Origin: Eutreptiella sp. 'Long Island Sound 2002'
Lineage: Eukaryota > Euglenozoa > Euglenophyceae > Eutreptiales > Eutreptiaceae
Reading direction: 5' to 3'
NCBI GenBank assembly: GCA_964036045.1
Contig: OZ038388.1
Span: forward strand, 2,117,501 to 2,181,500
Length of the DNA: 64,000 nucleotides
Part shown: piece by piece, positions 38,148 through 64,000 of the stretch
How the letters are laid out: every line of letters starts with the position of its first letter
Numbering within the stretch: the first letter of the stretch is position 1
Notes under the pieces: model-generated
What the model saw: only the letters and a program-made list of their open reading frames with translations
The model's database searches: none
What the model was told of the DNA's origin: nothing
Program-made: the position numbers and the translations under genes

Positions 38148-38392
38148 TGACGCGTTCCCGTGGGGGGCCGGCCACGGGACGCTGCGGTGGACACGCGCAA
38201 GTGAGCAGGCAGGCAAAGCACTACGCTCACAGGGGCATCAATGCGCTCATGTCATGTGACAAAGCGTTTCAGAATCCTTGCCACTCTGCAAAGAGGGAAC
38301 AAAAGTATGTACAACAACACATCAGGATATGTACACATGGGGTTAAGACTGGACTGGGGTAAGGGCATCACAGGACAATAGACACTCAGTCC
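38148..38392 (-). mobile_element. Inverted LTR end fragment (third gypsy copy)
   Basis: This 245-base piece is the reverse complement, at roughly nine bases in ten, of the last 245 bases of the element B LTR. It begins TGACGCGTTCCCG at 38148, which mirrors the CA terminus of that LTR. It therefore looks like the end of an LTR inserted on the minus strand into pol of element A and later split by element B. Confidence 0.65.
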
Positions 38393-39691
38393 TAATGAAG
38401 CGGTACCCAGAACCCCATGGCCAGGTTACGGCATACAACCGGTCTCCGGTCCACTAACCCCATGTACGGCGTGTTCCGTGCCGTGAAGCCCCGCATCGGC
38501 AACCGATGCACCGCCAGCGGAGATTTGTGTATCAGAATATCAGGAATCAACAGGGTTTTATTTTCATATTGTTTCCGACAATTTTTACGCTTCCGTTCTG
38601 ATATTCACTGTTTTGACTGCTGGCGGTTGGTTCGCGACTTTACCGTAACCGCCAGTTTAACTGTTTATAATGGAAACTTTAACGCTATCCGCGACGAAGG
38701 CTCCAAAGTCGCCAGGAACTGCATGGATGCTTCCGCAATTTTCATAATTAATACTCGCAACTTTAATCCGAATTTTTCAGGATGTCGAAATCGGATTTTC
38801 GACTTCGACATCCCCGCACTTGATTTGACCTCTTTCGAGTGGACCTACGTGCTTCCGTATGCACGAATCAACTTCCCTTTCATCCTGCCCTCCATTTGTC
38901 TTAAAGATATGGGCAAAACAAAGTTGATTCGTGAGGCCACTTGTGAGGGTCATATCTCGTGCCGCTTGCGAGTATTGACGATAAGGAAACGTGGGATGTA
39001 TTCACAATACTCCCGACGTAATTTAGGAAGCTTTACATGCCTTGCGTTTCTACACATGCGCGCTAGTGTAATGGATCATGGTCAAGAGGGTAGAGTTTGC
39101 GTTATAACTCTATGACCATGATATTGCGTGCGTTAAGATAACTTTCGAGTGTAGCGCGCAAGTGTTGGTGTTGCATAGGAACTCTCCTTGAGTTCCTATG
39201 AGCGATTGACACAAAGTTATGCCCTTGGAGGGGCATGACATATCGTGGTGGGAGCTACATTTTTGGGCAATATTTGGTATGTGCCAGGTGTTGTGTTGCG
39301 TGCCCATTTGGCGGGCCCATTGCTCCAAGACAAGCCCGCCAATGGACCTCATATTGTGCAAGCCCCTTCTCCGTACTCCCTACGGTCAATTGCAAGCCTA
39401 ACCTTCGTGAAGGGAAGCTTGTGTGGTGATCCCGAAGCGATGCGTTGGGAGCAAGGTGTGTATTTTACATTTTTCCATATTTTCATGTGCCCACTTGGGA
39501 AGCAGCGCTTGTAACCTTTCAAGGCGCCCCAAGTGGAGCACATACGTGGGATCGAAGGTCATTGGTGTCAAGTCATTGTGTTTAGAAGGATTAAGTGATT
39601 GCACGATCCAAGCCAAAGATATTATAATATAATTATGCGCCTTTCAAGGCACTTTGGTTTGTCTTTGTGCCAATTTTGCCATTTTTGGCCC

Positions 39692-39749
39692 GTCATGATG
39701 TCAAGTGGCGACCGTGTATTTCAACGTTGCGCTCAATTGACATCATGAC
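39692..39749. other. 13-bp inverted repeat inside the LTR
   Basis: GTCATGATGTCAA at 39692-39704 and TTGACATCATGAC at 39737-39749 are exact complements. The 3' LTR carries the same pair near 62405-62462. It could be a hairpin or a binding site for a dimeric factor. Confidence 0.5.
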
Positions 39750-41151
39750 CCAAGTATGATATGAGGGTACATACTTCGGTGCCCAACATATCTTGGACCC
39801 GGCGAATAGCTCCTCTTAGGCTTGGCATACCGTGGCCGCCATGTTGGCGATTTGGGACTATCCCAAATCATGGGCTCACTTGGCGACCCTGCCATTCCCA
39901 ATACCGGAGGAGTTGGGCGACGCCCCAAAGATATGTTGGACACATATGACTTGACATCAATCCTATGGCACACTCCGGTCCAAGTCGGGCACGTGCCTCA
40001 TTTGCCCTAACCATGAGCGTGCGCAATTTTGGCCATTTTGAGCATTTTTCCACTTTTGCTGCCCGCCGTGCCCCATGTTCTAACCTTCGTGCACGCCGGA
40101 CGCATGGACCAATGGACCATATATGACATGGGTGTTATGGGTAATGGTCCTCATGGTCCACACACCACGTGGGCGAAGCGGAGCCGCCTTCGTCAAGGCG
40201 CTAGGCCAAATTGAGTATGGGCAATTTTGCCATTTTTGCATTTGTGGACCCAATTGGGATCGTCACCACGCCGAGTGGCATGGAGATCTTTGAGAGCCAA
40301 GGGCAGGGGAGTCTCCGTTGGACTCCCGGTGGATCACGTATGGAATGGCGGATCCGATCTCCAAGCCGGCGTGGAGATATACTATTGGGAGCACACCGAA
40401 TTTTGGCTCATTTCAAGCAGCCAAAATGACCCAATTTTGGGACCCCAATTTCCCCCTTCCGTGTGGTCAATTGGCGGCCCCATTTCTCTAAGCCCATAGG
40501 GAGCCCGGACCTAAATCCAAGTTGTACACTCAGATATAAGTCCTAGGTCCTGCCTCCTACCCTGTGAGCCATTGGCCTTACCTTGGCCGGGCGAGCCACG
40601 CATGGGAATGACGCCAATTTTGGTGATTTTGGCATCATGACCCCACTTGACTCATCCGTGTTGCCCTGATGCCGGGACCTCAGAGGGAACCAGGTTGGGT
40701 GAGGGCTCCAGGGAGTTCGTACTCGAAGGGCATAGGGTCAGTTGCCTCGTCCCTACCTCTGGCGGGTCCGGACGAGGGGTCAATTTTGGAGTTTTTCAAG
40801 CTAATTTCAGTTTGGGCTGAAACAGCCCATTTTCAGCTACCAACTCCTGGGTGATAATGGCGGGGCCATATCTCTGGCTCAGAGTGGAGTTGGGACCTGC
40901 CGTTAAGGGAGCATAGGGAGCCACTGTCGGTTGGCCTTGGAGCCGATTGGTTCCCAGGAACTCGCCTGTGGCTGTGCGGGACACCTCTCCCATTGGCAGG
41001 GTTTCAGGGCCCGGACTGAGCAGGGCATGGGTTGTGTTTGAGCCCCCGCCCCCATCAGCCACTGAGAGGGTCGGACCTGGGATTGGGATATGAGTCGGGA
41101 CTGAGTGTCTATTGTCCCTTGATGCCCTTACCCCAGTCCAGTCTTAACCCC

Positions 41152-41165
41152 ATGTGTACATATCC
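41152..41165 (+). repeat. LINE target-site duplication, left copy
   Basis: ATGTGTACATATCC. The uninterrupted 3' LTR has this sequence once (near 63865-63878), followed directly by TGATGTGTTGC, as after the right copy. Confidence 0.9.
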
Positions 41166-41554
41166 TTTTTGCACTGAACGGCGCCTTTTGTGGCTGGCCA
41201 GGCCGGGGAGAAAGGCTCTTGCGCGCCAAGCTTTTTTGGGGAGGGGCGGGAGCCCGAAATCAAGTTCAATCGCGGGCTGAGTACCGCTGCACGTTGCTGT
41301 CCTCGTCTGCTTCATCTCAAAGAGACTTGGCAGCCCCGTTATAGACAACCGCAGGCCGGGGTCTCCGCTTGATACCCGAAGGCGGTGTGGTTGCGGATTG
41401 GGGGTTAGAGCATGACGGCTTGAGCACGGGGGGTGGCTTGGGGGAGGGATTCATTTGCAGAAGTGACTGGTGAGTGCCAGTGTGGTAGTACTGATTGATC
41501 GCGCCGCTAGGGCTGTCGAGGGTCGGCGTGAGAAAATGTGTAAGTGTGGCTTTT
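41166..41554 (-). other. 3' UTR of the LINE
   Basis: Non-coding stretch between the ORF2 stop and the target-site duplication. Its minus-strand end reads GCCGTTCAGTGCAAAAA, a tail of only five A residues. Confidence 0.7.
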
Positions 41555-44500
41555 TCAAAGAGATGACACGTTGGACGAGTGTGAGGACGATTGTGAGTTT
41601 GTACTCGCGGGGGAGGGGGGGGCTGGTGCGAAGTACCTTGTTATGCGAGGAGAAGGGGCGGAAATGGGGGCGGAGGCGGCGAGGGGGGGTGCTGGTCTAG
41701 GGGGGGGGGGGAGGTTGAACATGTCCCTGATTGTGAGCGGCCGTTTGGGGGGCGGAGGCTCTGGCTGGGGTTGACTTGCGGTACCGCGTTTCAGTGATAG
41801 AGGCCGGACGGGCCTTGGGGGCTGGCGGCCGTGTTTTCGAGTTTTGGTGTGTGCCGCAGGAGATGGGGGGCGGGGGCGTTTTGGGGGCTTGTGTGCAACT
41901 TTGTCCGGGAGGGGGGGGGGAGGGTGGTAGGCGGGGGGGGGGCGTTGTTGGGCGGTGTGCGACGTGCTGTAGGGCGACCAGGGGCGTCCCCATGAGTTGG
42001 GGCCCGTAGGGGGGGTGAGCGGGGCTGGGGGGGGGTGGTCTTTTAGCCATTCCAGCGTGCGGTATAGGGCGCTGAGGAGCAGGGGAACACGATCCTTCAG
42101 GGCGAGTTTTAAGTCGTGACAGTGTGCTGGTTTTCTTCGGCCGGAGGGGGGGGTTGTGAGTTTGGTGTACAGCGTCATGGGAACAAGCCCCCGGACGAAA
42201 TTGCGTCTCTCCCCCACGTGTGTGGTCGCGGACCACCATTGGGACACCACCGTGGTGAAGGGGGGGCGCCAGCATTGAATGTAGGATTGGACCAGGTGTT
42301 CGCACGTTGGGCAGTGTGAGACGAAAGAGATAACATCCATCGGGTGCGGGTCGGGGCAAGCGTGGCAATGGCGAGGGCGCAAGTCGTCGTGGAAAGCAAA
42401 TGGCGCCATGTTGAAATTTCCGGAGGACCATTTGAAAGGGAGGCCTTTGAACCACGAAGTGTGATTGTAAAAATGGAAGCTGGACGGTGCGTGGATGTTT
42501 TCGTGTTTGTGGCGAGGGAGGAGATGCTTGATTGAGGTTGTAGTCAATTTGTGTATGACTGGGAGGGGGCCCCTGGATATGCACCCTATCGGGGGGGGGG
42601 GAAGGAGGGAGGGGTCCCAGACCATCACGTGGGCGGCCCACTTTGAGTAAGCATCTGAGATTTCATTCCCCACGAACCCGGCGTGCCCCTTGATCCACCC
42701 CCAACCCTGGATCATCCCTGGGCGTAGGGAGGCCTGAATGGACTGGAGAGAGGATTCCCACGTGCCGGCTGGCGAGCGTGATGGGAGGCCTGGGGGGGTG
42801 TTCGGAGAGAGAACAGTGATAACGTGGAGGTTGTCCCCTAGCACGGCGAAGGTGAGGTGCGGGTGAGATGCAAGGGCCCACCGTAGGAACATAATAGCGG
42901 CCCAGAACTCCGATCCCTCTGATGACTGGTACGGGGACGTTTGGCACAGTACCCATCTGGAGCCATTTGGAAAAACCAGGGTGGCCGCCGATCCGTAGCC
43001 CAAGGCGCCCGCTGAGCCATCCAAGTACACCCATGTCGTGCCGGGGGACGATGCGAGGAGGAGGGCAAGGGCTGCTTCACAACCCCATTCTTCGAGGTCG
43101 TCGGGGTCAAGGGAGTGAGGTTCATCTGGGAGCCGGTACAGCTCGCCATGCAGTGACGAGTCGAGTAGGACCCCGCCGTATGGCCCGGGGGGGGGGTTGA
43201 GGATGTATTCTTGAGGGTGAAGAAGGGGGGGGGTGAGCAGTTCGTGGCGCCCCGCCAGTTGAGGGAGGACAGAAATGGCTGGGTTTTGAAAGGTGTATTC
43301 TTTCTCGTTGCGGCGGAGACCGGGGTTTTTGATGGTGTGGGTGGTGCCGTCCGAAAACTGGAGTGTGGCCGATTCTGAGTGCACTTCCGTGACTGTACCT
43401 AGGTGGAACCCCAGGTCCTGGGGCGTCCGTTTTAATCTGTTGCCGAACTTGCTGTATTGTGGTGCCGGCTTGGTGGCTAGGAACCGGACCTGGACTTTTT
43501 CTTTTGGGAGGAAAAGGGAGGGGGGGCAGGAGGCCCAGAGGCCGGTGCTGTGGTATCGGAAGCCTATGGCGTGGCATGCGTCCATGATGGTGTCTTGGAT
43601 TGGGTTGCGTGTGGTGGAGAGCATTGCTTCGGAAAAAGATTCGTTTGTCGAGGCCGGGCCGTCTCCGTTGAGGTACCTTATTGCGGTGTTTACCAGGGCC
43701 ATGCAAATTGAAAAAGTGAAGTGGCGGAGTCCTAAGCCTCCCTGGTGGCGAGGGGTGTAGCGGGCCTTAGGGGAGACGAGGCGGGAGATCCTGTTGGCTC
43801 TGTCCGGGGAGGGGTCATGCGCAACATTTTGCCAGATCATGGCCTGAAGGGCCCCCAACTCGTTCAGGGCCAGGGGGTGTGCCATGAGGCGGTAGGAAAG
43901 AATAGGGATGAGTTGGACGTTCACCAAGAGAATGTATTCCGAAAGGGTGAGCTGGAGGGGTTGGAGGGTTGTGAAAAATGAGCGTATTTCCGACTTGGCC
44001 AATGCCAGTGTTTGTGCCTCATGGTTGGCGGTGAAGATGTATACCCCTAGGTATTTGTAGCAATTGTGTGGTTGCCCCGTCTTTTGGTTTGTTGTCGACA
44101 GGGGGGTGCCCGAGGGGGAGGTGAAGGTTCTGGGGGGAGCTGTTCCCATAGCGTGGATCTCGGTTTTGCTGAGGTTAAGGTCTAGACCCCACTCCCTGGC
44201 GACCGTGTCGAAGAAGTTTAAAACTTGCTGTATGCGGTCCCCATTCTCTGATCGATAGAGGAGGTCGTCAACAAAGGCGTGGCCCGATTCGTGTGGGGAG
44301 GGGGGTGCAGTGACGTGGGACGGCAAGGCGAAGAGGAGCACATTCAGGTAGAGGCAGAAAAGGATTGGTGACATGGGGCATCCTTGCCGAACGCCTCTGG
44401 TTTGCAGGTGTGAGGAGTGGGTTTGACCTGACACCACTGGGAAGTCGCGAGGGGCACGGTACAAGGATTGAATGAGGTTTACAAGGGGCGTAGGAAAGTT

Positions 44501-46600
44501 CAGGCGGGATAGAACTGTGAAGAGGGTGGTGTGGGGGACGGAGTTAAAAGCCTTATTGAAATCAATGTAGAGGCTGTAGCTACCGACCGATTCCCGAAAC
44601 GTGGATAAGAGGTTGAAAATGTGGTCCTGGCATCTGCGGTTCGGAAGCCCGCCGAACTGGGTGGGGTGTATGATGGAATGTTCAATGGCCGCTGCCAGTA
44701 GCTCTCGGTTGGCGTGTGTTGCAATTATTTTGTAAACGCTGTTCAGCAAGGCTATAGGCCTGTAATTTATCGGGTTCATCACGTCCCCTTTTTTAAAAAG
44801 CAAGATAATGTTGGCTTCGAGCCATTTCTCGGGCAACGGCCGGTGGAGGTAGTAGTTGCATACCTTCCAAATGAATTGTTGGATAGGGGGGGGGGAGACG
44901 TGCAAAGTGTAGTTGTTTGTGAAGTCCCGCCCCCCCGCCTTGTTGGGCTTGGACCTCTTAAGCGTGTTGCGTAACGATTCCCAGGTAATGTCAGGGAGGA
45001 GGCCGTGTTTTGTGGGTTCGGGGCAGGCGGGGGAGTGTGCGAGTAGGCGATCCACTAGAGTGTTCGGCGGTGCGTATTCGAGGCTGCCCCCCAGGGTGAG
45101 GAGTGTAGAAGAGAAAATAGAGCCCACTTCTTTGGGGGTGGAGACGAGCTGTGTGGTGCCAGGGCGCTTCAGCGTTATTTCACCTCGTTCCACGGGGTTG
45201 AGCGCCTCGTTGATGGTGCGTTTGATCCTAGTTTTCCTCACTAGGCACCGATGGATTTTGGTGGTTGCGGCCTTGTTCACTTTGGTTTCCCACTCCTTGA
45301 CGAGTTTGTTGAGCGTGTCCATGGAAGCGGGGTAGTTGGGATGGCTGGGGGGGGGCAGGGTTTGCAGGGACTCTTTGATTTTCTTTACCAGAGCCGAGGA
45401 GGTAGGGCGTGACGGCGTGGTGATACTGTGGTAGCTGGTCGCCACTTCCTCCAGCACGACGTCTGTGAAAAGCTCGATGTCCGCCGAGGACAAGGACTCA
45501 AAGCGGGGGAGGGTAGACTCGCACCACCGCGCCAGGGGGGCAAGGGAGTCGTGGTGCTTGGAGCGTTCCCGCTCCGTCAGTTTTCGGAAAACTTTCCTCT
45601 TAGTTGTGGGAGCTTCGGTAAAAGGGTGAGGGGGGACTTGAGAGGTGTACGTGACTGGGTGGTGGTCTGACGTTTTGTCGTCGGTTTGGATGGTTGCAGA
45701 GGTGGGGGCAAAAAATTCCGAGGCCGCCGGGGAGAGCAAAATATGGTCAAGGCGGCTACTGCTTGCCCTGTACGGGGTGGGGTATCGGGAGAAGGACCGC
45801 TCGGTCGGGTGAAAGTGCCGAAAGGTATCGATGAGGCGCGGCGGGTCGCTCGTGATCTGTCTGCGAAGCCACGGCCATTCGTTGTCCGTTTGGAGGTTCG
45901 ATCCGTCTAGTTCAGGGCACATTATGCAATTGGTGTCCCCACCGAGGACGTGGTTAGGATACTGATGCATGAGTGGCCGTAGGATGTTTTCAATTTTTGA
46001 GCGGTGGACGTCTGTGCTTGGGGCGTATACCGAGACCAGCAAGGTGGGCGGGGCCCCCGGGAGAGTGAGAACGGCTGCCGCCAGCATCCCTTCTGTATCT
46101 AGTCGGGGAAGGGGGGTAACGAAGCGGGAGAGCCGGGGGGAACAGACCAAGACGGAACCATGCTCGCCTCTGGAGTGTTTGTCTTGGCTGATATTCGAAA
46201 CGATGGTGGCTTTAGTGCCCGAACCGTAGGCGTATACGTGGGGGAGGATGGGGGCGTGATTGATTTCTTGGAGGAAGAGGATGTCGAAGTCGTTCTTGAG
46301 GTGTCGGAGAATTTGGCTGCTCACTATGGGTTTCTTCTGCAAGTTGTGGGATAGAAAACGCAGTTCTGAAGGGAGGGGTATGGGGGGGCGGTGAGGCCGT
46401 TGGTAACCCTTCCGTAGGCGCGTTTTGGATCTCGGGGGGGGCGGGATAGGGGGGGGCTGGGGGGGCACTGGGGAGCCGGGCTGGCTGGGCTGGCTAAGGC
46501 AAAGAAAGTGCTGAATTTGGTCGGCCGGTATCCCGGCCGAGGTGAGCTCGTCGTCTAGCCCCTTGCCTGTGATGGTGGAAGCCGTGACTGGGCCGGTGGT
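41555..46600 (-). CDS. LINE ORF2: endonuclease, reverse transcriptase, RNase H polyprotein
   Basis: The frame is open from just after a TGA at 46601-46603 to the TGA at 41555. No ATG occurs before the middle of the endonuclease domain, so initiation is unclear; a GTG lies at 46466-46468. Numbering residues from that GTG (1,637 codons): APE-type endonuclease at about 36-275 (FLQEIN, SVYAPS, GGDTN, SRLDHILLS, SDHHPV); reverse transcriptase at about 545-810 (NYRPIALLNSVYKI, YIDFNKAFNSVPH, RQGCPMSP, catalytic FVDD 732-735); Tudor-like strand-rich segment at about 1016-1050; RNase H at about 1145-1285 (YLDGS, SSEGSEFWAA, GDNLHVI, WIKGHAGFVGNEISD); Cys/His cluster at about 1368-1391 (CHACP...HCPTCEH). 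A Pro-rich tail ends with LTIRDMF and PRITRYFA. The product nicks target DNA and primes reverse transcription there. Confidence 0.9.
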   Translation of the reverse strand, partial: TTGPVTASTITGKGLDDELTSAGIPADQIQHFLCLSQPSQPGSPVPPQPPPIPPPPRSKTRLRKGYQRPHRPPIPLPSELRFLSHNLQKKPIVSSQILRHLKNDFDILFLQEINHAPILPHVYAYGSGTKATIVSNISQDKHSRGEHGSVLVCSPRLSRFVTPLPRLDTEGMLAAAVLTLPGAPPTLLVSVYAPSTDVHRSKIENILRPLMHQYPNHVLGGDTNCIMCPELDGSNLQTDNEWPWLRRQITSDPPRLIDTFRHFHPTERSFSRYPTPYRASSSRLDHILLSPAASEFFAPTSATIQTDDKTSDHHPVTYTSQVPPHPFTEAPTTKRKVFRKLTERERSKHHDSLAPLARWCESTLPRFESLSSADIELFTDVVLEEVATSYHSITTPSRPTSSALVKKIKESLQTLPPPSHPNYPASMDTLNKLVKEWETKVNKAATTKIHRCLVRKTRIKRTINEALNPVERGEITLKRPGTTQLVSTPKEVGSIFSSTLLTLGGSLEYAPPNTLVDRLLAHSPACPEPTKHGLLPDITWESLRNTLKRSKPNKAGGRDFTNNYTLHVSPPPIQQFIWKVCNYYLHRPLPEKWLEANIILLFKKGDVMNPINYRPIALLNSVYKIIATHANRELLAAAIEHSIIHPTQFGGLPNRRCQDHIFNLLSTFRESVGSYSLYIDFNKAFNSVPHTTLFTVLSRLNFPTPLVNLIQSLYRAPRDFPVVSGQTHSSHLQTRGVRQGCPMSPILFCLYLNVLLFALPSHVTAPPSPHESGHAFVDDLLYRSENGDRIQQVLNFFDTVAREWGLDLNLSKTEIHAMGTAPPRTFTSPSGTPLSTTNQKTGQPHNCYKYLGVYIFTANHEAQTLALAKSEIRSFFTTLQPLQLTLSEYILLVNVQLIPILSYRLMAHPLALNELGALQAMIWQNVAHDPSPDRANRISRLVSPKARYTPRHQGGLGLRHFTFSICMALVNTAIRYLNGDGPASTNESFSEAMLSTTRNPIQDTIMDACHAIGFRYHSTGLWASCPPSLFLPKEKVQVRFLATKPAPQYSKFGNRLKRTPQDLGFHLGTVTEVHSESATLQFSDGTTHTIKNPGLRRNEKEYTFQNPAISVLPQLAGRHELLTPPLLHPQEYILNPPPGPYGGVLLDSSLHGELYRLPDEPHSLDPDDLEEWGCEAALALLLASSPGTTWVYLDGSAGALGYGSAATLVFPNGSRWVLCQTSPYQSSEGSEFWAAIMFLRWALASHPHLTFAVLGDNLHVITVLSPNTPPGLPSRSPAGTWESSLQSIQASLRPGMIQGWGWIKGHAGFVGNEISDAYSKWAAHVMVWDPSLLPPPPIGCISRGPLPVIHKLTTTSIKHLLPRHKHENIHAPSSFHFYNHTSWFKGLPFKWSSGNFNMAPFAFHDDLRPRHCHACPDPHPMDVISFVSHCPTCEHLVQSYIQCWRPPFTTVVSQWWSATTHVGERRNFVRGLVPMTLYTKLTTPPSGRRKPAHCHDLKLALKDRVPLLLSALYRTLEWLKDHPPPAPLTPPTGPNSWGRPWSPYSTSHTAQQRPPPAYHPPPPLPDKVAHKPPKRPRPPSPAAHTKTRKHGRQPPRPVRPLSLKRGTASQPQPEPPPPKRPLTIRDMFNLPPPPRPAPPLAASAPISAPSPRITRYFAPAPPSPASTNSQSSSHSSNVSSL

Positions 46601-46685
46601 TCACTGAATCTTGGCCCTTTTGTGTTCAGGTAGAGGGGGCTGGACAGTGCAGGAGGCGGGTACCCGGCCCTCTGGCTTTCGTGGG

Positions 46686-49397
46686 TTAGCTTGCCTGCGG
46701 TATGTGTCGGAGGACTAGAGCGAGGCGAGGGACGGTACGAGGGACGGTTAGCCCAAACACTTCGTCTTCTCTCCGTCGAGGTATACCGTGGTGCCACTCA
46801 TGGCGTGCGGCCCCCGTGAGGACCAGGAGAGAGCGGGCAAACAGGCGGATGCGAAAGGAGTCCCCGTTGGAGGGGTTCTTAAAGAACATTGTGGTGTCCG
46901 ATTGGGAACCAAAAATGGACACTGGGTCGCCTAGCAAGGGGTCGTCCCCGTGGTAGCCGATGCCCTCTCCCGGGAGATACATTGTGCCCGTGATTTGGTT
47001 GGGAGGAGGGTGTGAGAGGCCTAGCCGCTCCAGCGCGGCATTGTAGGTTTGGAGGATGGAGGAAAACTCTTCCGGGATGGGGGACGTGGCGGCGACTTTG
47101 CTCGGGCCGAGGTATGCGTGGCCGAAGTGTTGGACTGAGCGCCCGTGGTACTTCTCCCACGTGTTGTCGTGGAGAATCTTTTTTACCGTTTCCTCTTGGC
47201 TTTCGGAGAATACGTCGCGGACGTAATAAAAACCAGCGGGGAGGCGGGGGTCGATTTGAATATCCGAGGCGGGGGTGGGGGCACCGTGGTCGGGGGGTAG
47301 GAGGGTGGTCGCCTCGCCTCCTAGTGGAGCAAGCAGCGGGACGCTGGTCTCGGACATCTCTTCGATGCGGCTTGGTCCCGGCGTTGGCGTAGCGGCGCCG
47401 ACGTCCTCCGGTGCCGCGTTCCACTCGCTGATGCGCTCAGTCAGCCCCGTAGCGGGCCTTTCACGAAGGGCGGTGACAAGTTGGGACACGAAGGCCGTGG
47501 ACCCCAAGGCGGCTCCCGCTTGGAGGCGCTGCACTATGGGTTGCTCGTGCTCGGCCACATCCGGGTCTTGAGCGGGGAGGATCTTCTCGAGGGCGATGAG
47601 GTTGCGGTGTAGTGGGGCAAAGGCAGCGTCTCCATATTTGAAATCATGCGCTAGCAGCGCGGATTCCCCCTTTTCGTAGACCACGAGGTAGGCTTGTTGG
47701 TGTTCGTAGGGAGGCCGCGTGGGCTCGAACGACACGTACGGGCCAAGAAACCCCGCTTGGACGCGCAAGTCGAGAGCGTGCGCCGATCTTGGGGCCACTA
47801 GGAGCACGGCGGTCTTCGGGGCCTTAGATGAGTCGTATGAGGGCGGGGCCGGCGTCGCGTGGGCTCGCTCGGGGGCGCCCGAAGGCGCGGACCTCGCGTT
47901 GCCGTCGGATCGTGACGAGAACCGCACTAATTGCCCATCTATGCCATGAAAGAGGACAATGCCGCATGAGTGGAAGAAGCGGATAGCTAACGTTTGGACA
48001 CCGGTCTTCATGACGTCGCACGGCGCGTGAGTGGTGTCAATCGCCACGACCAAGGAATCTTTAGACCGGAACATCGCTCCTAGGGGCGGTGAGGCGCCCC
48101 GTCCACCGGGCAGGTTGGCGATCATCATGGTGAGCATTTCCGGAGCTTGTAGGTCTTTGTTTCTTTCCTTTCGGTCCCTAGCGATCACGGCTTGATACAC
48201 TTCGGTAGTCGGCAAAGCGTGCATGTCCATTGCAAGGAGTTCTCCGGTGAGGAATTGGGCGCACTCTCGGACCTTAAACATGAGCTCGTCGGCAAAGCGA
48301 GATGGGAGTTCCCAATCAAACCGGTAGTAGGCCCAATGCGGGCTCTCGGAAGGGACTATGTGGCCAAACGGGTAGTAGGCATTTTTGGTGTTCACCGATA
48401 CGTTTGCTAGCGCGGGGACAAACATTTCGTTCATTAACTTCATGAAAGCACGGGCGTCTCCAATTTTGCGTTGCCTTGGTTTAGTTTTATCTCTCTCTTC
48501 CGGCGGCGAAGGCTCAATGTGATCAAGGAATTCTATGCTCACCTCAAAACGTAGTGTTTTGTGCAACCGGAGGTCTCGCACCGTTGGATGGGCGTGCTTG
48601 GCGGCGAAGCGGAAAGGTTCAAACTTAAAATTGATGTCTTCATATCGGCACCCGTCAAAGGAAGAGGTGTTTAGGAGCAAGGCAACATACGGCATCGTTT
48701 GATGGCCGCTCGTGCGGAACTCGTAGGAGTCTTTGCCGTCCCTTTTGACCTTGTAGGCGTCCCGGAGTTGCGCCCCGTGCATACATATCACGCTAGAAAT
48801 GTACGGAAGAAGAGGAAAAAGGGCGGAAGTTGAGCCTAGCATGCGAAAGGTGGCGGCAACCACTTGAGCGTCCCACGCCGGAATAACGAACCATCCTTTG
48901 AGGTCTTTGTTCTCTTCTTTGGCTTTATCTAGCACGGTTCTTAATTGTTTAGCCCACGGGGTGGCGGTGGGTGGAGACTCCTTGGCTTCGGCTTGGGAAT
49001 AGTCCAACTCATACGGCTTTAGGTAGAAACGCTTGTGCTTGAACAAAAGCTTTTCGAGCTCGTTGTAGTTATTGTGCGCAACGGAAGAGACCCTACCTCG
49101 ATCTAGAATTTCCGTGGAGTTGCTCCCAACGAAGGCGGATTGAATATCGGTGCCTTCCACATCCAGGTAAAACTCGGAGTAGTCTTGTAGTCGGCGGTAG
49201 ACTTCGGGAACGAAAATGCGTTGGCGTGTGTCAAATATTTTGCCTTCAATGGCTTCAAGTTGGCGTGACGGAAAGCGTGTTTGCAACGGCGAATTTGAGG
49301 CTTGGTGTTTTTGAAAGAGGTGTGACGGAGAATAGTTGAATAGCGTTGAAAGGCCATCATCGGCGGTTTTGGAGCTTCCAAATAGGGTGAAATTCAT
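46686..49397 (-). CDS. LINE ORF1 with C-terminal AlkB-type dioxygenase domain
   Basis: ATG at 49397 is the first in-frame Met inside the element; 903 codons to TAA. The frame is also open upstream into the target LTR, which is accidental. Residues 1 to about 600 match no ORF1 type that I know: no RRM, no CCHC knuckle, no clear coiled coil. A Pro/Ala/Ser-rich linker follows. Residues 718-903 (47246-46689) form an AlkB-like Fe(II)/2-oxoglutarate dioxygenase: NQ at 800-801, YLPGEGIGYHGDD with the iron ligands His816 and Asp818, distal His870 in WHHGIP, and Arg891/Arg897 in RLALVLR, the R-x5-R that binds 2-oxoglutarate. Such enzymes oxidatively remove alkyl groups from nucleic-acid bases. The likely role is keeping the element RNA or cDNA free of methyl marks or damage, in the particle or at the target. 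The domain identity is strong; the role is inference. Confidence 0.85.
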   Translation of the reverse strand: MNFTLFGSSKTADDGLSTLFNYSPSHLFQKHQASNSPLQTRFPSRQLEAIEGKIFDTRQRIFVPEVYRRLQDYSEFYLDVEGTDIQSAFVGSNSTEILDRGRVSSVAHNNYNELEKLLFKHKRFYLKPYELDYSQAEAKESPPTATPWAKQLRTVLDKAKEENKDLKGWFVIPAWDAQVVAATFRMLGSTSALFPLLPYISSVICMHGAQLRDAYKVKRDGKDSYEFRTSGHQTMPYVALLLNTSSFDGCRYEDINFKFEPFRFAAKHAHPTVRDLRLHKTLRFEVSIEFLDHIEPSPPEERDKTKPRQRKIGDARAFMKLMNEMFVPALANVSVNTKNAYYPFGHIVPSESPHWAYYRFDWELPSRFADELMFKVRECAQFLTGELLAMDMHALPTTEVYQAVIARDRKERNKDLQAPEMLTMMIANLPGGRGASPPLGAMFRSKDSLVVAIDTTHAPCDVMKTGVQTLAIRFFHSCGIVLFHGIDGQLVRFSSRSDGNARSAPSGAPERAHATPAPPSYDSSKAPKTAVLLVAPRSAHALDLRVQAGFLGPYVSFEPTRPPYEHQQAYLVVYEKGESALLAHDFKYGDAAFAPLHRNLIALEKILPAQDPDVAEHEQPIVQRLQAGAALGSTAFVSQLVTALRERPATGLTERISEWNAAPEDVGAATPTPGPSRIEEMSETSVPLLAPLGGEATTLLPPDHGAPTPASDIQIDPRLPAGFYYVRDVFSESQEETVKKILHDNTWEKYHGRSVQHFGHAYLGPSKVAATSPIPEEFSSILQTYNAALERLGLSHPPPNQITGTMYLPGEGIGYHGDDPLLGDPVSIFGSQSDTTMFFKNPSNGDSFRIRLFARSLLVLTGAARHEWHHGIPRRREDEVFGLTVPRTVPRLALVLRHIPQAS

Positions 49398-49620
49398 GGT
49401 GTTTTCGGGATGAACGAAAAGGTGGCTTGGCGTCAATTGAAAGATTGCGAGCGTGGATTTGAACTCGGGAATTGAGATGATGATTTGAAAACTGCGGGAA
49501 AGGCTCCAGAACTTGAACAGCCCAGGATTTTCTCCAATCACCGAATAGCCTGGACTACTGGTGGATCCATCAACAAAATGCTGAGGGTCAATCGAAAAAA
49601 AATAGACACTCAGAAAGTGT
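49398..49620 (-). promoter_or_regulatory. 5' UTR and presumed internal promoter of the LINE
   Basis: About 223 bases between the right target-site duplication and the ORF1 ATG. LINEs of this kind usually carry their promoter here. No specific box is recognised. Confidence 0.5.
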
Positions 49621-49634
49621 ATGTGTACATATCC
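49621..49634 (+). repeat. LINE target-site duplication, right copy
   Basis: ATGTGTACATATCC, identical to 41152-41165. After it the LTR resumes with TGATGTGTTGCTGC. Confidence 0.9.
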
Positions 49635-49810
49635 TGATGTGTTGCTGCACATACTTTCGTTCCCTCTTTGCAGAGTGGCAAGGATTCTGAAACGCTTTGT
49701 CACATGACACAGGCGTATTGATGCCCTTGTGAGCGTAGTGCCTTGCCTGCCTGCTCACTTGTGCGTGTCACCGCAGCGTCCCGTGGCCGGCCCCCCACGG
49801 GAACGCGTCA

Positions 49811-50261
49811 AAAGCGTTTCACCGCCGCGGGGTTACCCAGCCCTCGCGTGCCACTCGGGGCCACCAACCCCGAGCAGCGCGTCGCAGCAGCGCGGCGCAG
49901 CTCGCAGCTCGCAGCGCAGCGCAGCGTCTCGCAGCGCAGCGCAGCAGCTCGCAGCGCCACTCAGCGACAGCGCCGAGTTCGTCACGGAGCCCGCAGCGCC
50001 GTCAAGAGCATCGCCCTGATCGCGCAGCGCCCGTGGAAGAGGTGCACAGACCAGGACTCCTGCATCAGCCCCATCGGCCGACCCGGAGTCCCAAGGGCCG
50101 ACCAGCAAGGCCGCGTCAACCACCTCCACAACCACCGGCTGACCAGCACCAGCCGCACTTCCAATCCAGTGCTGCAGCACCCTCCCCAACAACCACAACC
50201 AGTTCGTTGAGGTGAATGAGTGCACGTCAAGGACTTCAAGACCATCTACGCCCCCGCTGCC
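49811..50261 (+). other. Leader of element B between LTR and gag
   Basis: It begins AAAGCGTTTCACCGC directly after the LTR end. No clear match to a plant initiator-Met-tRNA primer site is seen, so the priming mode is open. About 49870-49965 is a GCAGC/GCAGCGCA low-complexity repeat. Confidence 0.55.
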
Positions 50262-53200
50262 ATGGTGAATTGGCAGGAAGCGGGCAGGACGTGGCCGCGG
50301 CCCCACCCCCATGCAGCACGCCTGCTGCGTGGGTTGGTTTGGGACCAGCATTACCGCCACAGCAACCCCCAGTGCGAAGGGGGCATGCCCAGGAGCTTCG
50401 AGCTCCGCACGGACATCGCCCCCGACCGCCTGCAGGCCGTGGAGGACTGGCTGCGGGCGGAGGGGTACGAGTACCGCCACCAGCAGAGGCGCTGGAGGGC
50501 GTGGACCCGGCCGGACAGGCCCGGGGAAGGGCTGCGTCCCGACGGGATTGAGGAGGACGAGGAGCCCAACGCCTACCCATCGGGCGCCTCGATCAACGTC
50601 TCCCTGTGGGACGTGATCGAGAAGAAGTTCCCGGAACCGGGGAACGAGCGCAGGCTGCAGGGCAGCAGCAGCGCGTCTCCGGCGACGGAGAAGAGGTCCG
50701 CCGGGGACAAGAAGAGGGACCGGAGGTGGCGGGAGTACCAGGAGTCCCTGGCTGCCGAAGCCGCCCAAGGCGCCAAGGGCGGAACCCCAGCCCCCAGTCC
50801 CCAACGGCCCAATGGTGGACACCACCCCGGCTCCACCACCCTTGGCGACTACATCCAAGTCGCCAAGCAGACCCAGGCCAAACCCCGTCCGCTGCTCCTG
50901 AGGGCCCGGCAGGCCTCAGCAGGCCCCAGCAGCGACATCGAGTCGGCCCACCGCGGGAGGACGCCGGCCGACCAGGCCAGCTCCAGCAGCAGCGTCGCTC
51001 CCGAAAGGGACGTGGCGCGCGCCTGTGAGCGCGCCTGTGGGGTGCCCTGCAACCGTCGGGTTGCCCGGCAACGGGCCAAGCAGTACAGCGCTGCTGTGGA
51101 GGGCGCCGCCGGCATCGCCCAGGAGGAAGCTGCGCAGTGGGCGCATGGCATGGCCATCCACACCCAGACCGTGGCGGCCATTGCGGCTGGACTCACGGCC
51201 GTGGCCGCCCATGGGGTAGCGACTGCCCAGGTCAACGGTGAGTTGGCGGCAGCCGACGAGGAAGCCCGCCTGACGCAGGAGGCCATTGCCCGCAAGGAGG
51301 CCGAGGTGAAGGCGCTGGGGGAGGCGCTTGCCCAAGAGAGGGCAAAGAAGGAGGCGGAGGAAAGGGCCCACGCCGAAGCGACGGCTAAGGCCCATGAGGA
51401 TGCCGCCAAGAAGGAAGCCATCGAGGCCGCGCGACGGAAGGTCGCTGAAGAGAAGGCCAAGACGGAGGCGGAGCTGGCGGCGTTGGAGGCGCAGAAGGCG
51501 CAGCTGCTGCAGGCCCGGGAGACCGAGGCGGCTCGTGCTCGGGAAGAGGCCGAAGCGCGAGCTGCCGCAGCCACCGCCGCCGCAATGGAGGAGGCAGAGG
51601 CCAAACTCCGCCACGAGACTCCCCCGGGAGGATCGCGAGTGGAGACCCTTCGAAGGCTTTTCGAAGGGGACGCCTCCTCCAGGATGAAGCTGGATGAGGC
51701 AGACACGGGCAGCAGTGGGAGCGGTAGCACCACCGCCCGTCGACGGAGGAAGGGCAAGGGGAAGACCCCCGAGAGGCCGCGGAGGCCAGCGGGTGGGCAC
51801 CCCCACGACAGTGACCCCTTCTTCACCGCCAGTGACGGGGATGAACGAGGCCGTCGACATCGCCAAGTGGTGGCTTGGACGGGCGGAAGTGGCGGAGACG
51901 TCCCCATGGAAGGTGAGGATGAGGATCCCCCTCCTTCCTACCGGAGCTCCGAGTCCTCCGTGACCGAGACGCCCAGGTGGGGCGACATGGACGAGGATGA
52001 CGACATGGACTTCGGCATCACGAGGAGGCGCCCATCCTCGGACCCACCGAGGCGACCCGGCGGAGACCCACCGGGACCCCCTGGCGGAGGACCTTCAGGA
52101 CCCCCTGGAGGACGCCCACCAAGTGGACCCCCTGGAGGCGGACCACCGGGCGGGGGAGGACCCCCTGGACCGGGCGGACCCGGCGGAGGCCCTCCTGGAG
52201 GACCCCCTGGGGACCCCAGCGACCCACCAGGGAACGGTGTCCCGGACGCCACCTGGCGGTGGATTGTCTACCTCCGCAGGAGAGTCCAGTTGCTCGAGCT
52301 GGAGGTAGACACGGGCAAGAGCGAGATGGCTCGCATCTCCACGGTCGCCGCGCGCGCGCAGAAGGACTTGGACATCGCCAGGGCCGAGACCAAGTCGCTG
52401 ACCAACGTCGTCAGCGGCCTGCAGGAGAGGCTGGATGCGCTGGAAGCCCGTGGGAGAGTCGGCAGCGACCACCCACCCCTGGAGCCTGGCTCGTCGGACG
52501 ACGGCTGGGGACCCGGACCAGGTCCAGGCAGACCCCACGCCCCCGGCGGAGCCCCCAGGAGTCGCCCCAGCGCCAGTGCCCCCTCTCTCTCCGCCCCCTC
52601 TCACCACAGCGCGGGCCGCCGCAACGAGCGCGTGCCGCCCGGCAGTGGCAGTGAGGAATGGCGCGATGAGTGGCTCAGCGCGGACTACCACAACCGCCGT
52701 GCTCCACCGCGGACGCCTGTACGCCCCCGACGCCCGCCACCAGCCCCGGCGCCAATCCCCAGGGCTGGAGGACGTTATGGTGGACTCAGGGATGAGGTCC
52801 CCAGAGGAGACGTGGAGTGGGATGTCGGTGAAGGTGAGGACCTGGACCTGGACCTGGACCTGGAGGAGTTCGACATCAGCCCGCCGCGTGGTGTACGACG
52901 GGAGGCCGCTGAACGCAGCCGCCGGCGCCGTGAGGAGGATGCGTACATGGATGCAGTACGGCGTGAACACTTCGGTTCAGCGTACGTGGAGGAACCGCGG
53001 CGTAGCCACAGGGATTCCATGGAGGAGATGGACGTGGCGGCCGTGGGAGTCCGTGGGCGAGGCCGATGGGAACCTCGGTCGACCTCGCGGCCGGCGTTCA
53101 TGGTCTCTAAGGCCGCGGACGCCGCCGTGTGGGAAGACTTGAAGGACATCAAGCCCCCCATGTACGACGGCAACCCCCTCAACCTCGACCGCTTCTTGGA

Positions 53201-54590
53201 GAAGCTGGACGATTGGGGGCTGGCCGTCACTGAAGACCAACCTCCCGCGGATGCGGAGAGATATGTCTTCAAACGGTTCAGGTACCGCCTGCCGGAAGTG
53301 CTCGGCGAGCTATACTTCGTGGCGACCAAGGAGGGGAAAATCAAGACCCTCAAGGACGCCAAGAAGTGGCTCAACGAGCAGGAGCGGGTGGACGCTCCGC
53401 AGGTGGCTGCCAAGCGCTGGAAGTCCATCAAGCTTGAGCATGATGGACGGGAGATCCGCCTACGGGAATGGCGTGACTTCCGAGGGAAATACACCCTCTT
53501 CCGCCGCAACGTGGAGGATTGGAACGAGGGTGACGAGCAGGCTCGCCTGCTCTCCATGCTACCGGAAGCATGGATCAAGAGGGTCACCAAGGAGGAATCC
53601 AAGAGGGCCAAGTCCAACCACACGGTCAAGATGATGCTCCCCAAGGAGTATCATACGAACGTGGTGAGTTGGGCGAAGAAGAACGTGGCCCGGGATGTCA
53701 AACGGCACTCCCTGCGGAACGCTCTTCTCATCACCGTCTCGGGCGATCGCGAGAAGACCGCGATTTGGCGCCTTGACGACTGTGAGTTGAGCGGCCAGAC
53801 CATCCGTCTGCAGCCCATCCCGGCGCGGATGAGCTGCGACGAGATCCTGGAGTGGGTTGGCGAGGAAGTACTCAAGGAGTACCGAAACCTCCACCACACC
53901 CGCGGGTTGAGGCCCGGCGACCGCGAAGTCAACTACGTTGGCGAGGGGCCTGGCGGGGAATCTGCCATGGACCCAGCGGGAGCCGGCGGCGATGAGACTC
54001 TCGTCGACGATGACGACGACGATGAGCCCGCCGAAATGGCCGTGTGTGCCTTCGTGGCCAAGAACCTGAGCGCGGGGACCAAGCCAGCAAACTGGAAGCC
54101 CCTGCAGCCAGGTTGGAAGAAGCAGGAGAAGAGGGACCCTCGCCGTATTGGCGACCCTCCGCTGTCCTTTGGGGAGTTCGTACGAGCTCACCCGCAGGGC
54201 TGTTTCGTGTGTTATGGGAGGAAGAAAGGCTTCAACCATGACCACCGAACATGCCCCGTCCACAAGGCCGACACGGAGGCTTACAAGAAGGCGCACGGGT
54301 CGAAGAAGCGTGCGCCCGCGGGTATCCGGGAAACCAAGATGGAGGTGGACAAGGACGAGCTGGCCAAGCTGATGTCGTCGGTGGGAACCGAGTTGGCCAA
54401 GGAGATCCAGGAGATCAAGCGGAACTGGGTCCCCAGGTCGGACAACAAGAACAAGGAGAACAACCAGAATGACCAGAACAAGGACAAGGACAAGAAGGGT
54501 AAAGGAGGAGGTAAAGGGGGAAGGAAGAAAGGCGTCAACGACGTTGAGGCCGAGGAGAACACCCCCTCTTCCACAACCGACGCCCCCTAG
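50262..54590 (+). CDS. Gag of Ty3/gypsy element B (very large)
   Basis: First ATG in the frame at 50262; 1,442 codons, TAG at 54588. This is several times the usual gypsy Gag length. In order: charged N-terminal region; long Ala/Glu/Lys coiled coil at about residues 300-455; a collagen-like Pro/Gly stretch (GPPGG repeats) at about 595-655; a second coiled coil at about 670-735; acidic and Arg-rich patches; capsid-like core at about 955-1210 (IKPPMYDGNPLNLDRFLEKL, ERVDAPQVAAKRWKSIK); knuckle-like CFVCYGRKKGFNHDHRTC at about 1314-1331; a Lys/Asn/Gly-rich tail for nucleic-acid binding. The core and knuckle match Gag of element A; the long N-terminal part does not. Confidence 0.8.
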   Translation: MVNWQEAGRTWPRPHPHAARLLRGLVWDQHYRHSNPQCEGGMPRSFELRTDIAPDRLQAVEDWLRAEGYEYRHQQRRWRAWTRPDRPGEGLRPDGIEEDEEPNAYPSGASINVSLWDVIEKKFPEPGNERRLQGSSSASPATEKRSAGDKKRDRRWREYQESLAAEAAQGAKGGTPAPSPQRPNGGHHPGSTTLGDYIQVAKQTQAKPRPLLLRARQASAGPSSDIESAHRGRTPADQASSSSSVAPERDVARACERACGVPCNRRVARQRAKQYSAAVEGAAGIAQEEAAQWAHGMAIHTQTVAAIAAGLTAVAAHGVATAQVNGELAAADEEARLTQEAIARKEAEVKALGEALAQERAKKEAEERAHAEATAKAHEDAAKKEAIEAARRKVAEEKAKTEAELAALEAQKAQLLQARETEAARAREEAEARAAAATAAAMEEAEAKLRHETPPGGSRVETLRRLFEGDASSRMKLDEADTGSSGSGSTTARRRRKGKGKTPERPRRPAGGHPHDSDPFFTASDGDERGRRHRQVVAWTGGSGGDVPMEGEDEDPPPSYRSSESSVTETPRWGDMDEDDDMDFGITRRRPSSDPPRRPGGDPPGPPGGGPSGPPGGRPPSGPPGGGPPGGGGPPGPGGPGGGPPGGPPGDPSDPPGNGVPDATWRWIVYLRRRVQLLELEVDTGKSEMARISTVAARAQKDLDIARAETKSLTNVVSGLQERLDALEARGRVGSDHPPLEPGSSDDGWGPGPGPGRPHAPGGAPRSRPSASAPSLSAPSHHSAGRRNERVPPGSGSEEWRDEWLSADYHNRRAPPRTPVRPRRPPPAPAPIPRAGGRYGGLRDEVPRGDVEWDVGEGEDLDLDLDLEEFDISPPRGVRREAAERSRRRREEDAYMDAVRREHFGSAYVEEPRRSHRDSMEEMDVAAVGVRGRGRWEPRSTSRPAFMVSKAADAAVWEDLKDIKPPMYDGNPLNLDRFLEKLDDWGLAVTEDQPPADAERYVFKRFRYRLPEVLGELYFVATKEGKIKTLKDAKKWLNEQERVDAPQVAAKRWKSIKLEHDGREIRLREWRDFRGKYTLFRRNVEDWNEGDEQARLLSMLPEAWIKRVTKEESKRAKSNHTVKMMLPKEYHTNVVSWAKKNVARDVKRHSLRNALLITVSGDREKTAIWRLDDCELSGQTIRLQPIPARMSCDEILEWVGEEVLKEYRNLHHTRGLRPGDREVNYVGEGPGGESAMDPAGAGGDETLVDDDDDDEPAEMAVCAFVAKNLSAGTKPANWKPLQPGWKKQEKRDPRRIGDPPLSFGEFVRAHPQGCFVCYGRKKGFNHDHRTCPVHKADTEAYKKAHGSKKRAPAGIRETKMEVDKDELAKLMSSVGTELAKEIQEIKRNWVPRSDNKNKENNQNDQNKDKDKKGKGGGKGGRKKGVNDVEAEENTPSSTTDAP
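54588..54590 (+). promoter_or_regulatory. In-frame UAG between gag and pol, element B (probable readthrough site)
   Basis: TAG CGG AGC CCC. Upstream and downstream frames are the same and the downstream frame runs on for 1,673 codons. A stop followed by CGG is a context known for programmed readthrough in some RNA viruses (there usually UGA CGG). Element A has TAG AGG AGC CCC at the same place. Confidence 0.6.
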
Positions 54591-61108: not shown

Positions 61109-64000
61109 TGAAGCGGTACCCAGAACCCCATGGCCAGGTTACGGCATACAACCGGTCTCCGGTCCACTAACCCCATGTACGGCGTGTTCCGTGCCGTGAA
61201 GCCCCGCATCGGCAACCGATGCACCGCCAGCGGAGATTTGTGTATCAGAATATCAGGAATCAACAGGGTTTTATTTTCATATTGTTTCCGACAATTTTTA
61301 CGCTTCCGTTCTGATATTCACTGTTTTGACTGCTGGCGGTTGGTTCGCGACTTTACCGTAACCGCCAGTTTAACTGTTTATAATGGAAATTTTAACGCTA
61401 TCCGCGACGAAGGCTCCAAAGTCGCCAGGAACTGCATGGATGCTTCCGCAATTTTCATAATTAATACTCGCAACTTTAATCCGAATTTTTCAGGATGTCG
61501 AAATCGGATTTTCGACTTCGACATCCCCGCACTTGATTTGACCTCTTTCGAGTGGACCTACGTGCTTCCGTATGCACGAATCAACTTCCCTTTCATCCTG
61601 CCCTCCATTTGTCTTAAAGATATCGGCAAAACAAAGTTGATTCGTGAGGCCACTTGTGAGGGTCATATCTCGTGCCGCTTGCGAGTATTGACGATAAGGA
61701 AACGTGGGATGTATTCACAATACTCCCGACGTAATTTAGGAAGCTTTACATGCCTTGCGTTTCTACACATGCGCGCTAGTGTAATGGATCATGGTCAAGA
61801 GGGTAGAGTTTGCGTTATAACTCTATGACCATGATATTGCGTGCGTTAAGATAACTTTCGAGTGTAGCGCGCAAGTGTTGGTGTTGCATAGGAACTCTCC
61901 TTGAGTTCCTATGAGCGATTGACACAAAGTTATGCCCTTGGAGGGGCATGACATATCGTGGTGGGAGCTACATTTTTGGGCAATATGGAGTATGTGCCTT
62001 GTGTTGTGTTGCGTGCCCATTTGGCGGGCCCATTGCTCCAAGACAAGCCCGCCAATGGACCTCATATTGTGCAAGCCCCTTCTCCGTACTCCCTACGGTC
62101 AATTGCAAGCCTAACCTTCGTGAAGGGAAGCTTGTGTGGTGATCCCGAAGCGATGCGTTGGGAGCAAGGTGTGTATTTTACATTTTTCCATATTTTCATG
62201 TGCCCACTTGGGAAGCAGCGCTCGTAACCTTTCAAGGCGCCCCAAGTGGAGCACATACGTGGGATCGAAGGTCATTGGTGTCAAGTCATTGTGTTTAGAA
62301 GGATTAAGTGATTGCACGATCCAAGCCAAAGATATTATAATATAATTATGCGCCTTTCAAGGCACTTTGGTTTGTCTTTGTGCCAATTTTGCCATTTTTG
62401 GCCCGTCATGATGTCAAGTGGCGACCGTGTATTTCAACGTTGCGCTCAATTGACATCATGACCCAAGTATGATATGAGGGTACATACTTCGCTGCCCAAC
62501 ATATCTTGGACCCGGCGAATAGCTCCTCTTAGGCTTGGCATACCGTGGCCGCCATGTTGGCGATTTGGGACTATCCCAAATCATGGGCTCACTTGGCGAC
62601 CCTGCCATTCCCAATACCGGAGGAGTTGGGCGACGCCCCAAAGATATGTTGGACACATATGACTTGACATCAATCCTATGGCACACTCCGGTCCAAGTCG
62701 GGCACGTGCCTCATTTGCCCTAACCATGAGCGTGCGCAATTTTGGCCATTTTGAGCATTTTTCCACTTTTGCTGCCCGCCGTGCCCCATGTTCTAACCTT
62801 CGTGCACGCCGGACGCATGGACCAATGGACCATATATGACATGGGTGTTGTGGGTAATGGTCCTCATGGTCCACACACCACGTGGGCGAAGCGGAGCCGC
62901 CTTCGTCAAGGCGCTAGGCCAAATTGAGTATGGGCAATTTTGCCATTTTTGCATTTGTGGACCCAATTGGGATCGTCACCACGCCGAGTGGCATGGAGAT
63001 CTTTGAGAGCCAAGGGCAGGGGAGTCTCCGTTGGACTCCCGGTGGATCACGTATGGAATGGCGGATCCGATCTCCAAGCCGGCGTGGAGATATACTATTG
63101 GGAGCACACCGAATTTTGGCTCATTTCAAGCAGCCAAAATGACCCAATTTTGGGACCCCAATTTCCCCCTTCCGTGTGGTCAATTGGCGGCCCCATTTCT
63201 CTAAGCCCATAGGGAGCCCGGACCTAAATCCAAGTTGTACACTCAGATATAAGTCCTAGGTCCTGCCTCCTACCCTGTGAGCCATTGGCCTTACCTTGGC
63301 CGGGCGAGCCACGCATGGGAATGACGCCAATTTTGGTGATTTTGGCATCATGACCCCACTTGACTCATCCGTGTTGCCCTGATGCCGGGACCTCAGAGGG
63401 AACCAGGTTGGGTGAGGGCTCCAGGGAGTTCGTACTCGAAGGGCATAGGGTCAGTTGCCTCGTCCCTACCTCTGGCGGGTCCGGACGAGGGGTCAATTTT
63501 GGAGTTTTTCAAGCTAATTTCAGTTTGGGCTGAAACAGCCCATTTTCAGCTACCAACTCCTGGGTGATAATGGCGGGGCCATATCTCTGGCTCAGAGTGG
63601 AGTTGGGACCTGCCGTTAAGGGAGCATAGGGAGCCACTGTCGGTTGGCCTTGGAGCCCATTGATTCCCAGGAACTCGCCTGTGGCTGTGCGGGACACCTC
63701 TCCCATTGGCAGGGTTTCAGGGCCCGGACTGAGCAGGGCATGGGTTGTGTTTGAGCCCCCGCCCCCATCAGCCACTGAGAGGGTCGGACCTGGGATTGGG
63801 ATATGAGTCGGGACTGAGTGTCTATTGTCCCTTGATGCCCTTACCCCAGTCCAGTCTTAACCCCATGTGTACATATCCTGATGTGTTGCTGCACATACTT
63901 TCGTTCCCTCTTTGCAGAGTGGCAAGGATTCTGAAACGCTTTGTCACATGACACAGGCGTATTGATGCCCTTGTTAGCGTAGTGCCTTGCCTGCCTGCTC
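61109..64000 (+). repeat. 3' LTR of element B (cut by the window end)
   Basis: Begins TGAAGCGGTACCCAG and matches the 5' LTR almost base for base, without the LINE. By comparison with 49756-49810 about 55 bases remain beyond the window. Confidence 0.9.

Follow-up and report, generated by a model that had tools for sequence, protein, structure and literature searches.

A LINE in the genome of Eutreptiella whose ORF1 ends in an AlkB-type dioxygenase domain

We analysed a 64,000-nt stretch of Eutreptiella sp. 'Long Island Sound 2002' (assembly GCA_964036045.1, contig OZ038388.1, positions 2,117,501 to 2,181,500; hereafter the window), which contains a complete long interspersed nuclear element (LINE) whose first open reading frame (ORF1) ends in an AlkB-type Fe(II)/2-oxoglutarate (2OG) dioxygenase domain (Table 1). 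Endonuclease, reverse transcriptase and RNase H all lie in ORF2, as in LINEs of the apurinic/apyrimidinic endonuclease (APE) type with RNase H. The element also shows the hallmarks of APE-type LINEs, a target-site duplication (TSD) and a short A-run at the 3' end. An earlier reading of the same DNA, made from its sequence only, had described both ORFs as open. This held for ORF1, read from an ATG (the mechanically called frame begins further upstream, at a GTG, and we used the ATG at 49397), and for the frame of ORF2, although the latter lacks an ATG in its first 171 codons (46600-46087), the first one falling inside the endonuclease. The two ORFs do not overlap, being in different frames and separated by an 85-nt gap.

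The exact TSD claimed for the element was confirmed as 15 identical bp at both ends. The same word, AGGATATGTACACAT, occurs two further times in the window, at 63865-63879 and at 38324, both within copies of the same long terminal repeat (LTR) sequence. Segment 38396-41166 aligns with 61109-63879 over 2,771 bp at 99.57% identity, and segment 49621-49756 with 63865-64000 at 99.3%; on the 3' LTR, these two flank alignments overlap by exactly the 15 duplicated bases. Since both flanks are two parts of one Ty3/Gypsy LTR and overlap by the TSD, an uninterrupted version of the site is present in the same window. Likewise, because the LINE splits the 5' LTR, it is younger than the Gypsy insertion, whose LTRs (about 2.9 kb or more) are 0.4% different.

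The dioxygenase assignment rests on profile, residue and fold evidence. PF13532 (2OG-FeII_Oxy_2) matched ORF1 residues 771-879 (E 1.1e-7, 32.7 bits, cut-off 31.2), and the full predicted ligand set is in place, with H816, D818 and H870 for iron and R891 and R897 (R-x5-R) for 2OG, roles assigned by homology; these five are invariant columns in an alignment with five other AlkBs. The structure model of the domain (predicted local distance difference test, pLDDT, 82.4) has the double-stranded beta-helix AlkB fold by Foldseek and VIA-align. Profile and structure comparison, set beforehand as a test of the domain, thus found both the AlkB profile and the fold. The five residues stand where the sequence-only reading had placed the AlkB signature within residues 718-903, but the NQ that it included, at 800-801, is not the Asn conserved in relatives. 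Of the 66 positions at which at least 85% of 18 reference AlkBs from bacterial and viral contigs agree, the domain keeps 37, and of the 47 whose majority is under 50% it keeps only 5, which suggests long-term constraint on its sequence. Elsewhere in ORF1 we recognised no domain: there is no RNA recognition motif (RRM) among Pfam matches in residues 1-690, the full-ORF1 AlphaFold model being unusable (pLDDT 28), and the pattern of a CCHC zinc knuckle is absent (five cysteines in 903 aa). The ORF1 alignment, searched against PDB, gave four matches up to E 10, all on the AlkB part, and ORF1 had no match in NCBIfam.

Table 1. Coordinates of the LINE, its parts and the flanking LTR segments in the window
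Feature	Positions	Strand	Basis
ORF1, 903 aa plus stop	46686..49397	-	Open frame from ATG, no internal stop
AlkB-type Fe(II)/2OG dioxygenase domain, ORF1 residues 718-903	46689..47246	-	PF13532, PDB matches, model, Foldseek, VIA-align, dN/dS
N-terminal part of ORF1 (residues 1-717); no domain recognised, CCHC knuckle absent	47247..49397	-	Pfam, pattern search
Complete LINE, 8,454 bp, 5' end at 49620	41167..49620	-	TSD, empty-site alignment, other copies
TSD, 5' copy, AGGATATGTACACAT	49621..49635	-	Exact 15-bp match
TSD, 3' copy, AGGATATGTACACAT	41152..41166	-	Exact 15-bp match
5' untranslated region, 223 bp	49398..49620	-	From element start to ORF1 ATG
ORF2 open frame, 1,681 codons plus stop	41555..46600	-	Open frame
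ORF2 endonuclease PF03372; N, E, DxN, D, SDH motifs	45662..46351	-	Pfam above cut-off, motifs
ORF2 reverse transcriptase PF00078, FVDD motif	44039..44791	-	Pfam above cut-off, motif
ORF2 RNase H PF00075; D, E, D, HxxxxNExxD motifs	42638..43036	-	23.5 bits vs cut-off 25.8, motifs
Gypsy 5' LTR, left part, split by the LINE; resumes at 49621	38396..41166		LTR alignment
Gypsy 3' LTR, reaches window end; uninterrupted (empty) version of the site	61109..64000		Both flank alignments include 63865-63879

We searched the genome (2.28 Gb, 2,205 contigs) for further copies. The best 50 of 3,283 first-look candidates for ORF1 were scored, and all were 99-100% identical over residues 1-903 and without stops. 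Ten of these, ranked by ORF1 similarity, were read with their flanks (L038-L047). Nine start at the same base as the window element and one six bases later; eight reach its 3' end, with the end sequence GTGCAAAA (one of them, L041, with an internal deletion), and the match of L040 and L045 stops short. Exact 16-19 bp repeats, a few bases of which may belong to the element ends, bound seven of the ten, and the remaining three have no credible duplication. Three copies (L039, L043 and L044) sit in sequence related to the two Gypsy elements of the window, and the flanks of the other seven have no match within it. Additionally, in the second Gypsy element, 34939-35771 and 34443-34952 are adjacent stretches matched by the two flanks of L043, and their 14-base overlap provides a second empty site. 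As expected from their choice by ORF1, all ten have an ORF1 free of internal stops (the L042 match lacks the final two bases, within the stop codon). Four copies have an open ORF2 without gaps, one of these from its second base; in the other six, ORF2 has a stop, gaps or a deletion, or is matched over a short length. The domain therefore lies within the TSDs and is present in other copies, so it is part of the mobile unit, as the sequence-only reading had it, and a host gene or chance neighbour is ruled out.

Gene-model representatives of the family comprise 163 (P0002) and 121 (P0004) member sequences for ORF1, and 372 for ORF2 (P0021). Protein searches with ORF1 gave 11 significant hits of 2,233 candidates and 20 of 7,995 scored, 20 different proteins in all; these searches depend on shared 5-residue words, and distant AlkB-bearing LINEs could escape them. 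The 20 proteins are 73-99% identical to the window ORF1, the low end being copies with out-of-frame or foreign parts. Eight (P0001-P0008) span the AlkB core and keep all five residues, P0008 with an out-of-frame stretch ahead of the core. P0009 ends early and carries D818N, P0011 and P0012 leave the frame, and nine further copies do not extend as far as the core. The gene model of P0010 joins the 5' end of the LINE straight to ORF1 near residue 203, perhaps through an internal deletion or a predicted intron. Relatives of ORF2 show 54% (P0023), 43% (P0024) and lower identity, and none of the 37 listed (7,987 scored) has PF13532 in the same protein.

The young copies resemble one another too closely for a test of selection and were chosen through ORF1, and we turned to an older subfamily in the same genome, represented by P0004, which is 94% identical to the window ORF1 and none of whose 55 best scored places has an internal stop. 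The five copies nearest to it (L048, L049, L050, L051 and L052; 2,712 bases each) came from open-frame hits, and their five comparisons with the window share ancestry and are not independent. Over the AlkB domain, nonsynonymous divergence (dN) was 0.022-0.043 and synonymous divergence (dS) 0.218-0.279. The dN/dS ratio (omega) of the domain across copies, a measure that the sequence-only reading had called for at the catalytic residues, was 0.08-0.16 (0.12, 0.16, 0.15, 0.11 and 0.08 against L048, L049, L052, L050 and L051, an order kept below). Nonsynonymous to synonymous changes in residues 718-903 numbered 14:32, 18:30, 13:26, 10:27 and 9:31, with binomial p from 5e-8 to 4e-12 in these non-independent comparisons (about 3:1 is expected without selection). 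These results show that purifying selection kept the AlkB domain while the subfamilies diverged. Omega was 0.35, 0.10, 0.18, 0.09 and 0.14 for residues 1-400, and 0.19, 0.14, 0.22, 0.16 and 0.22 for residues 401-690, so that the AlkB value was the lowest of the three in three comparisons, intermediate in one and highest in one; constraint on the domain is close to that on the remainder of ORF1. In L048 and L052, dN of residues 1-400 is inflated because these copies are out of frame at the N-terminus (two and one internal stops, respectively). Among the older copies themselves (ten comparisons), AlkB omega was 0.22-1.22, as expected after insertion.

Loss of the catalytic residues in other copies, which the sequence-only reading had named as evidence against itself, was not seen among the DNA copies read: the window and the five older copies retain the five catalytic and cofactor residues (6/6), as do 18 of 18 loci picked for ORF1 similarity (L030-L047; 13 different insertions, window included). 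Damage near the site in L049 (L808R, P809R and R865G) and L052 (H757R and H869P) is consistent with decay after insertion. That the fold is an RNA-binding or structural part of the ORF1 protein (ORF1p), with catalysis dispensable, would fit the replacement of the Asn conserved in relatives, but the keeping of all five residues in 6/6 copies at dS 0.22-0.28 makes this very improbable. Among the young copies L038-L047, the AlkB part (558 bp) has only 3 variants, the remainder of ORF1 (2,151 bp) 33 and ORF2 (5,043 bp) 120. The AlkB part is also poor in synonymous variants, with 2 as compared with 28 in the remainder. This variation, biased for ORF1 by the ranking on ORF1 protein similarity, was not used as evidence of selection.

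The Ty3/Gypsy element that hosts the LINE (38396-64000) contains a gag-like ORF (50220-54590) and a pol ORF with a chromodomain (54642-59612). About 190 bp adjoining its LTR start, within 38148-38392, are an inverted repeat of the far end of the LTR (94% to 49621-49810 and 63811-64000). The second, diverged Gypsy-like element (31360-38362; pol ORF 34555-37302), in a relative of which L043 sits, shares about 69% DNA identity with the first over 36424-37896. Local repeats, inverted and direct, occupy 16674-19975 and 21303-21826, and Rfam at gathering scores gave no match within the window.

The nearest solved relatives of the domain by single-sequence PDB search are Schizosaccharomyces pombe Ofd2 (4.5e-13), human ALKBH8 (5.9e-13) and human ALKBH6, which have the same fold with 25-29% identity over the domain in fold searches; these are host proteins outside mobile elements, whereas the window AlkB is part of a LINE. 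ALKBH5 is not the nearest relative, being absent from the 15 matches up to E 10 in that search; like Escherichia coli AlkB, it matched only with a profile and far more weakly (4.9e-7, as compared with 3.8e-37 for ALKBH8 at the top). The profile ranking leans to ALKBH8 and Ofd2, pieces of which were two of its three seeds, and VIA-align placed ALKBH6 and ALKBH3 above ALKBH8. Methylated adenosine (m6A or m1A) on element RNA, the substrate proposed by the sequence-only reading, is not supported yet.

These rankings bear on three other roles. General repair, in which the protein would remove alkylation damage from element RNA or from complementary or target DNA like AlkB, ALKBH2 and ALKBH3, is rather improbable, given the weak sequence match to these three and the presence of Pro820 in the place of the substrate residue Asp135 of AlkB (spacing judged by eye). 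The ranking of ALKBH8, top by profile and just behind Ofd2 by single sequence, would fit a protein that adjusts how the element is translated by hydroxylating modified wobble uridines of tRNA, or a similar mark on uridine, with no demethylation of element RNA; ALKBH8 modifies wobble nucleosides in tRNAs, as stated in an excerpt of PMC3175000. We consider this unlikely, because of the seed bias and VIA-align order given above and because the RRM of ALKBH8 was not found (no search was made for its methyltransferase). Ofd2, the best single-sequence match, points instead to histones or chromatin, where the enzyme might help the element to integrate or be transcribed: Ofd2 is a nuclear protein whose 2OG turnover increases in the presence of histones and for which no DNA repair activity was detected (PMC3175000, excerpt), and the title of a later paper names it a histone H2A dioxygenase (PMC3250473). 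However, the 2011 study saw no change of histone modification by mass spectrometry (PMC3175000, excerpt), and no feature of this element points to chromatin, making such a role quite improbable.

Oxidation of a base mark on element RNA within the ribonucleoprotein (RNP) is, we infer, the likeliest role. LINE ORF1 proteins bind element RNA, as established for L1, and this ORF1p would do the same; the tethered dioxygenase would then meet element RNA first and oxidise modified bases in cis within the RNP, by either demethylation or hydroxylation. Such oxidation could restore or change translation, stability or templating of the RNA, or remove a host silencing mark. We judge it somewhat probable that this is a LINE with endonuclease, reverse transcriptase and RNase H whose AlkB-ending ORF1p binds element RNA and oxidises its modified bases in cis. 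The stronger proposal, that ORF1p is both RNP protein and eraser or writer of its own RNA marks, acting in cis and required for transposition, is more tentative and stays on the doubtful side. Because selection kept a domain of a type that edits RNA or DNA marks elsewhere, the element may edit RNA, either its own or that of its host. By analogy, the ALKBH5-like protein of an orchid Gypsy element, shown to bind RNA and to demethylate m6A in vitro (PMC9289625, excerpt), offers a precedent for a demethylase mechanism.

Several observations weigh against oxidation of element RNA in cis by a selected, active domain. The Asn conserved in relatives, presumably the 2OG-binding Asn120 of E. coli AlkB, aligns with Thr805 and is Ala in P0002 and Arg in L049, so activity could be altered. 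The N-terminal part that would bind RNA (residues 1-690) has no Pfam match up to E 10, and base demethylation is not proven for the closest relatives. In L049, AlkB omega (0.16) exceeds that of both other parts of ORF1 (0.10 and 0.14). Among the protein copies, AlkB-conserved positions vary as often as others (12/37 versus 38/140, p 0.54, without P0008; 17/37 versus 61/140, p 0.85, with it); since most copies look dead, no better keeping is expected, and the comparison still lends no support. P0002 and P0004 likewise differ at 1/37 versus 11/140 positions (p 0.46). Finally, m6A promotes human L1 and ALKBH5 suppresses it (PMC7873242, excerpt), so a simple benefit of erasing m6A to escape should not be assumed.

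AlkB in a retrotransposon is already known, since the orchid Ty3/Gypsy element also encodes an AlkB dioxygenase whose catalytic set is intact (PMC9289625, excerpt). That element, however, is an LTR element with a separate ORF of the ALKBH5 group, whereas ours is a LINE with AlkB fused to the C-terminus of ORF1 and nearest to Ofd2, ALKBH8 and ALKBH6. Fungal DNA transposons carry another Fe(II)/2OG dioxygenase, TET/JBP, thought to counter silencing, but of a different family (PMC12730594, excerpt). Replicases of plant RNA viruses likewise hold an AlkB fold within a larger protein of an RNA-templated element, although these are viruses and ours a retrotransposon; in the viral fold search, named plant-virus rows had E 5.5e-9 and above with 11-16% identity, and the best giant-virus or phage rows E 8.8e-16. 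Among the matches listed in the open-access literature (titles and abstract starts), none described AlkB fused to a LINE ORF1. Comparative surveys may mention AlkB domains near eukaryotic mobile elements. The ORF1 types I-V of Khazina and Weichenrieder (cited in PMC4120745, excerpt) also lie upstream of ORF2 in APE-type LINEs and have RRM, CCHC and coiled coil as named modules; the window ORF1 differs in having no CCHC and no recognised RRM, and in having AlkB, a word with no occurrence in PMC4120745.

The element is thus a LINE with a new ORF1 module, AlkB. If the proposed reading is true, it would define a new ORF1 type, an N-terminal part without a recognised domain plus AlkB, and epitranscriptomic counter-defence in non-LTR elements, bearing on the question of a role for RNA modification in controlling retrotransposons and of counter-measures by the elements. 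Many near-identical copies with a predicted catalytically complete AlkB, and dN/dS near 0.1, make the question testable. Together with the orchid Gypsy AlkB, the fungal TET/JBP transposons and viral AlkB, the finding suggests that mobile elements have recruited 2OG dioxygenases repeatedly.
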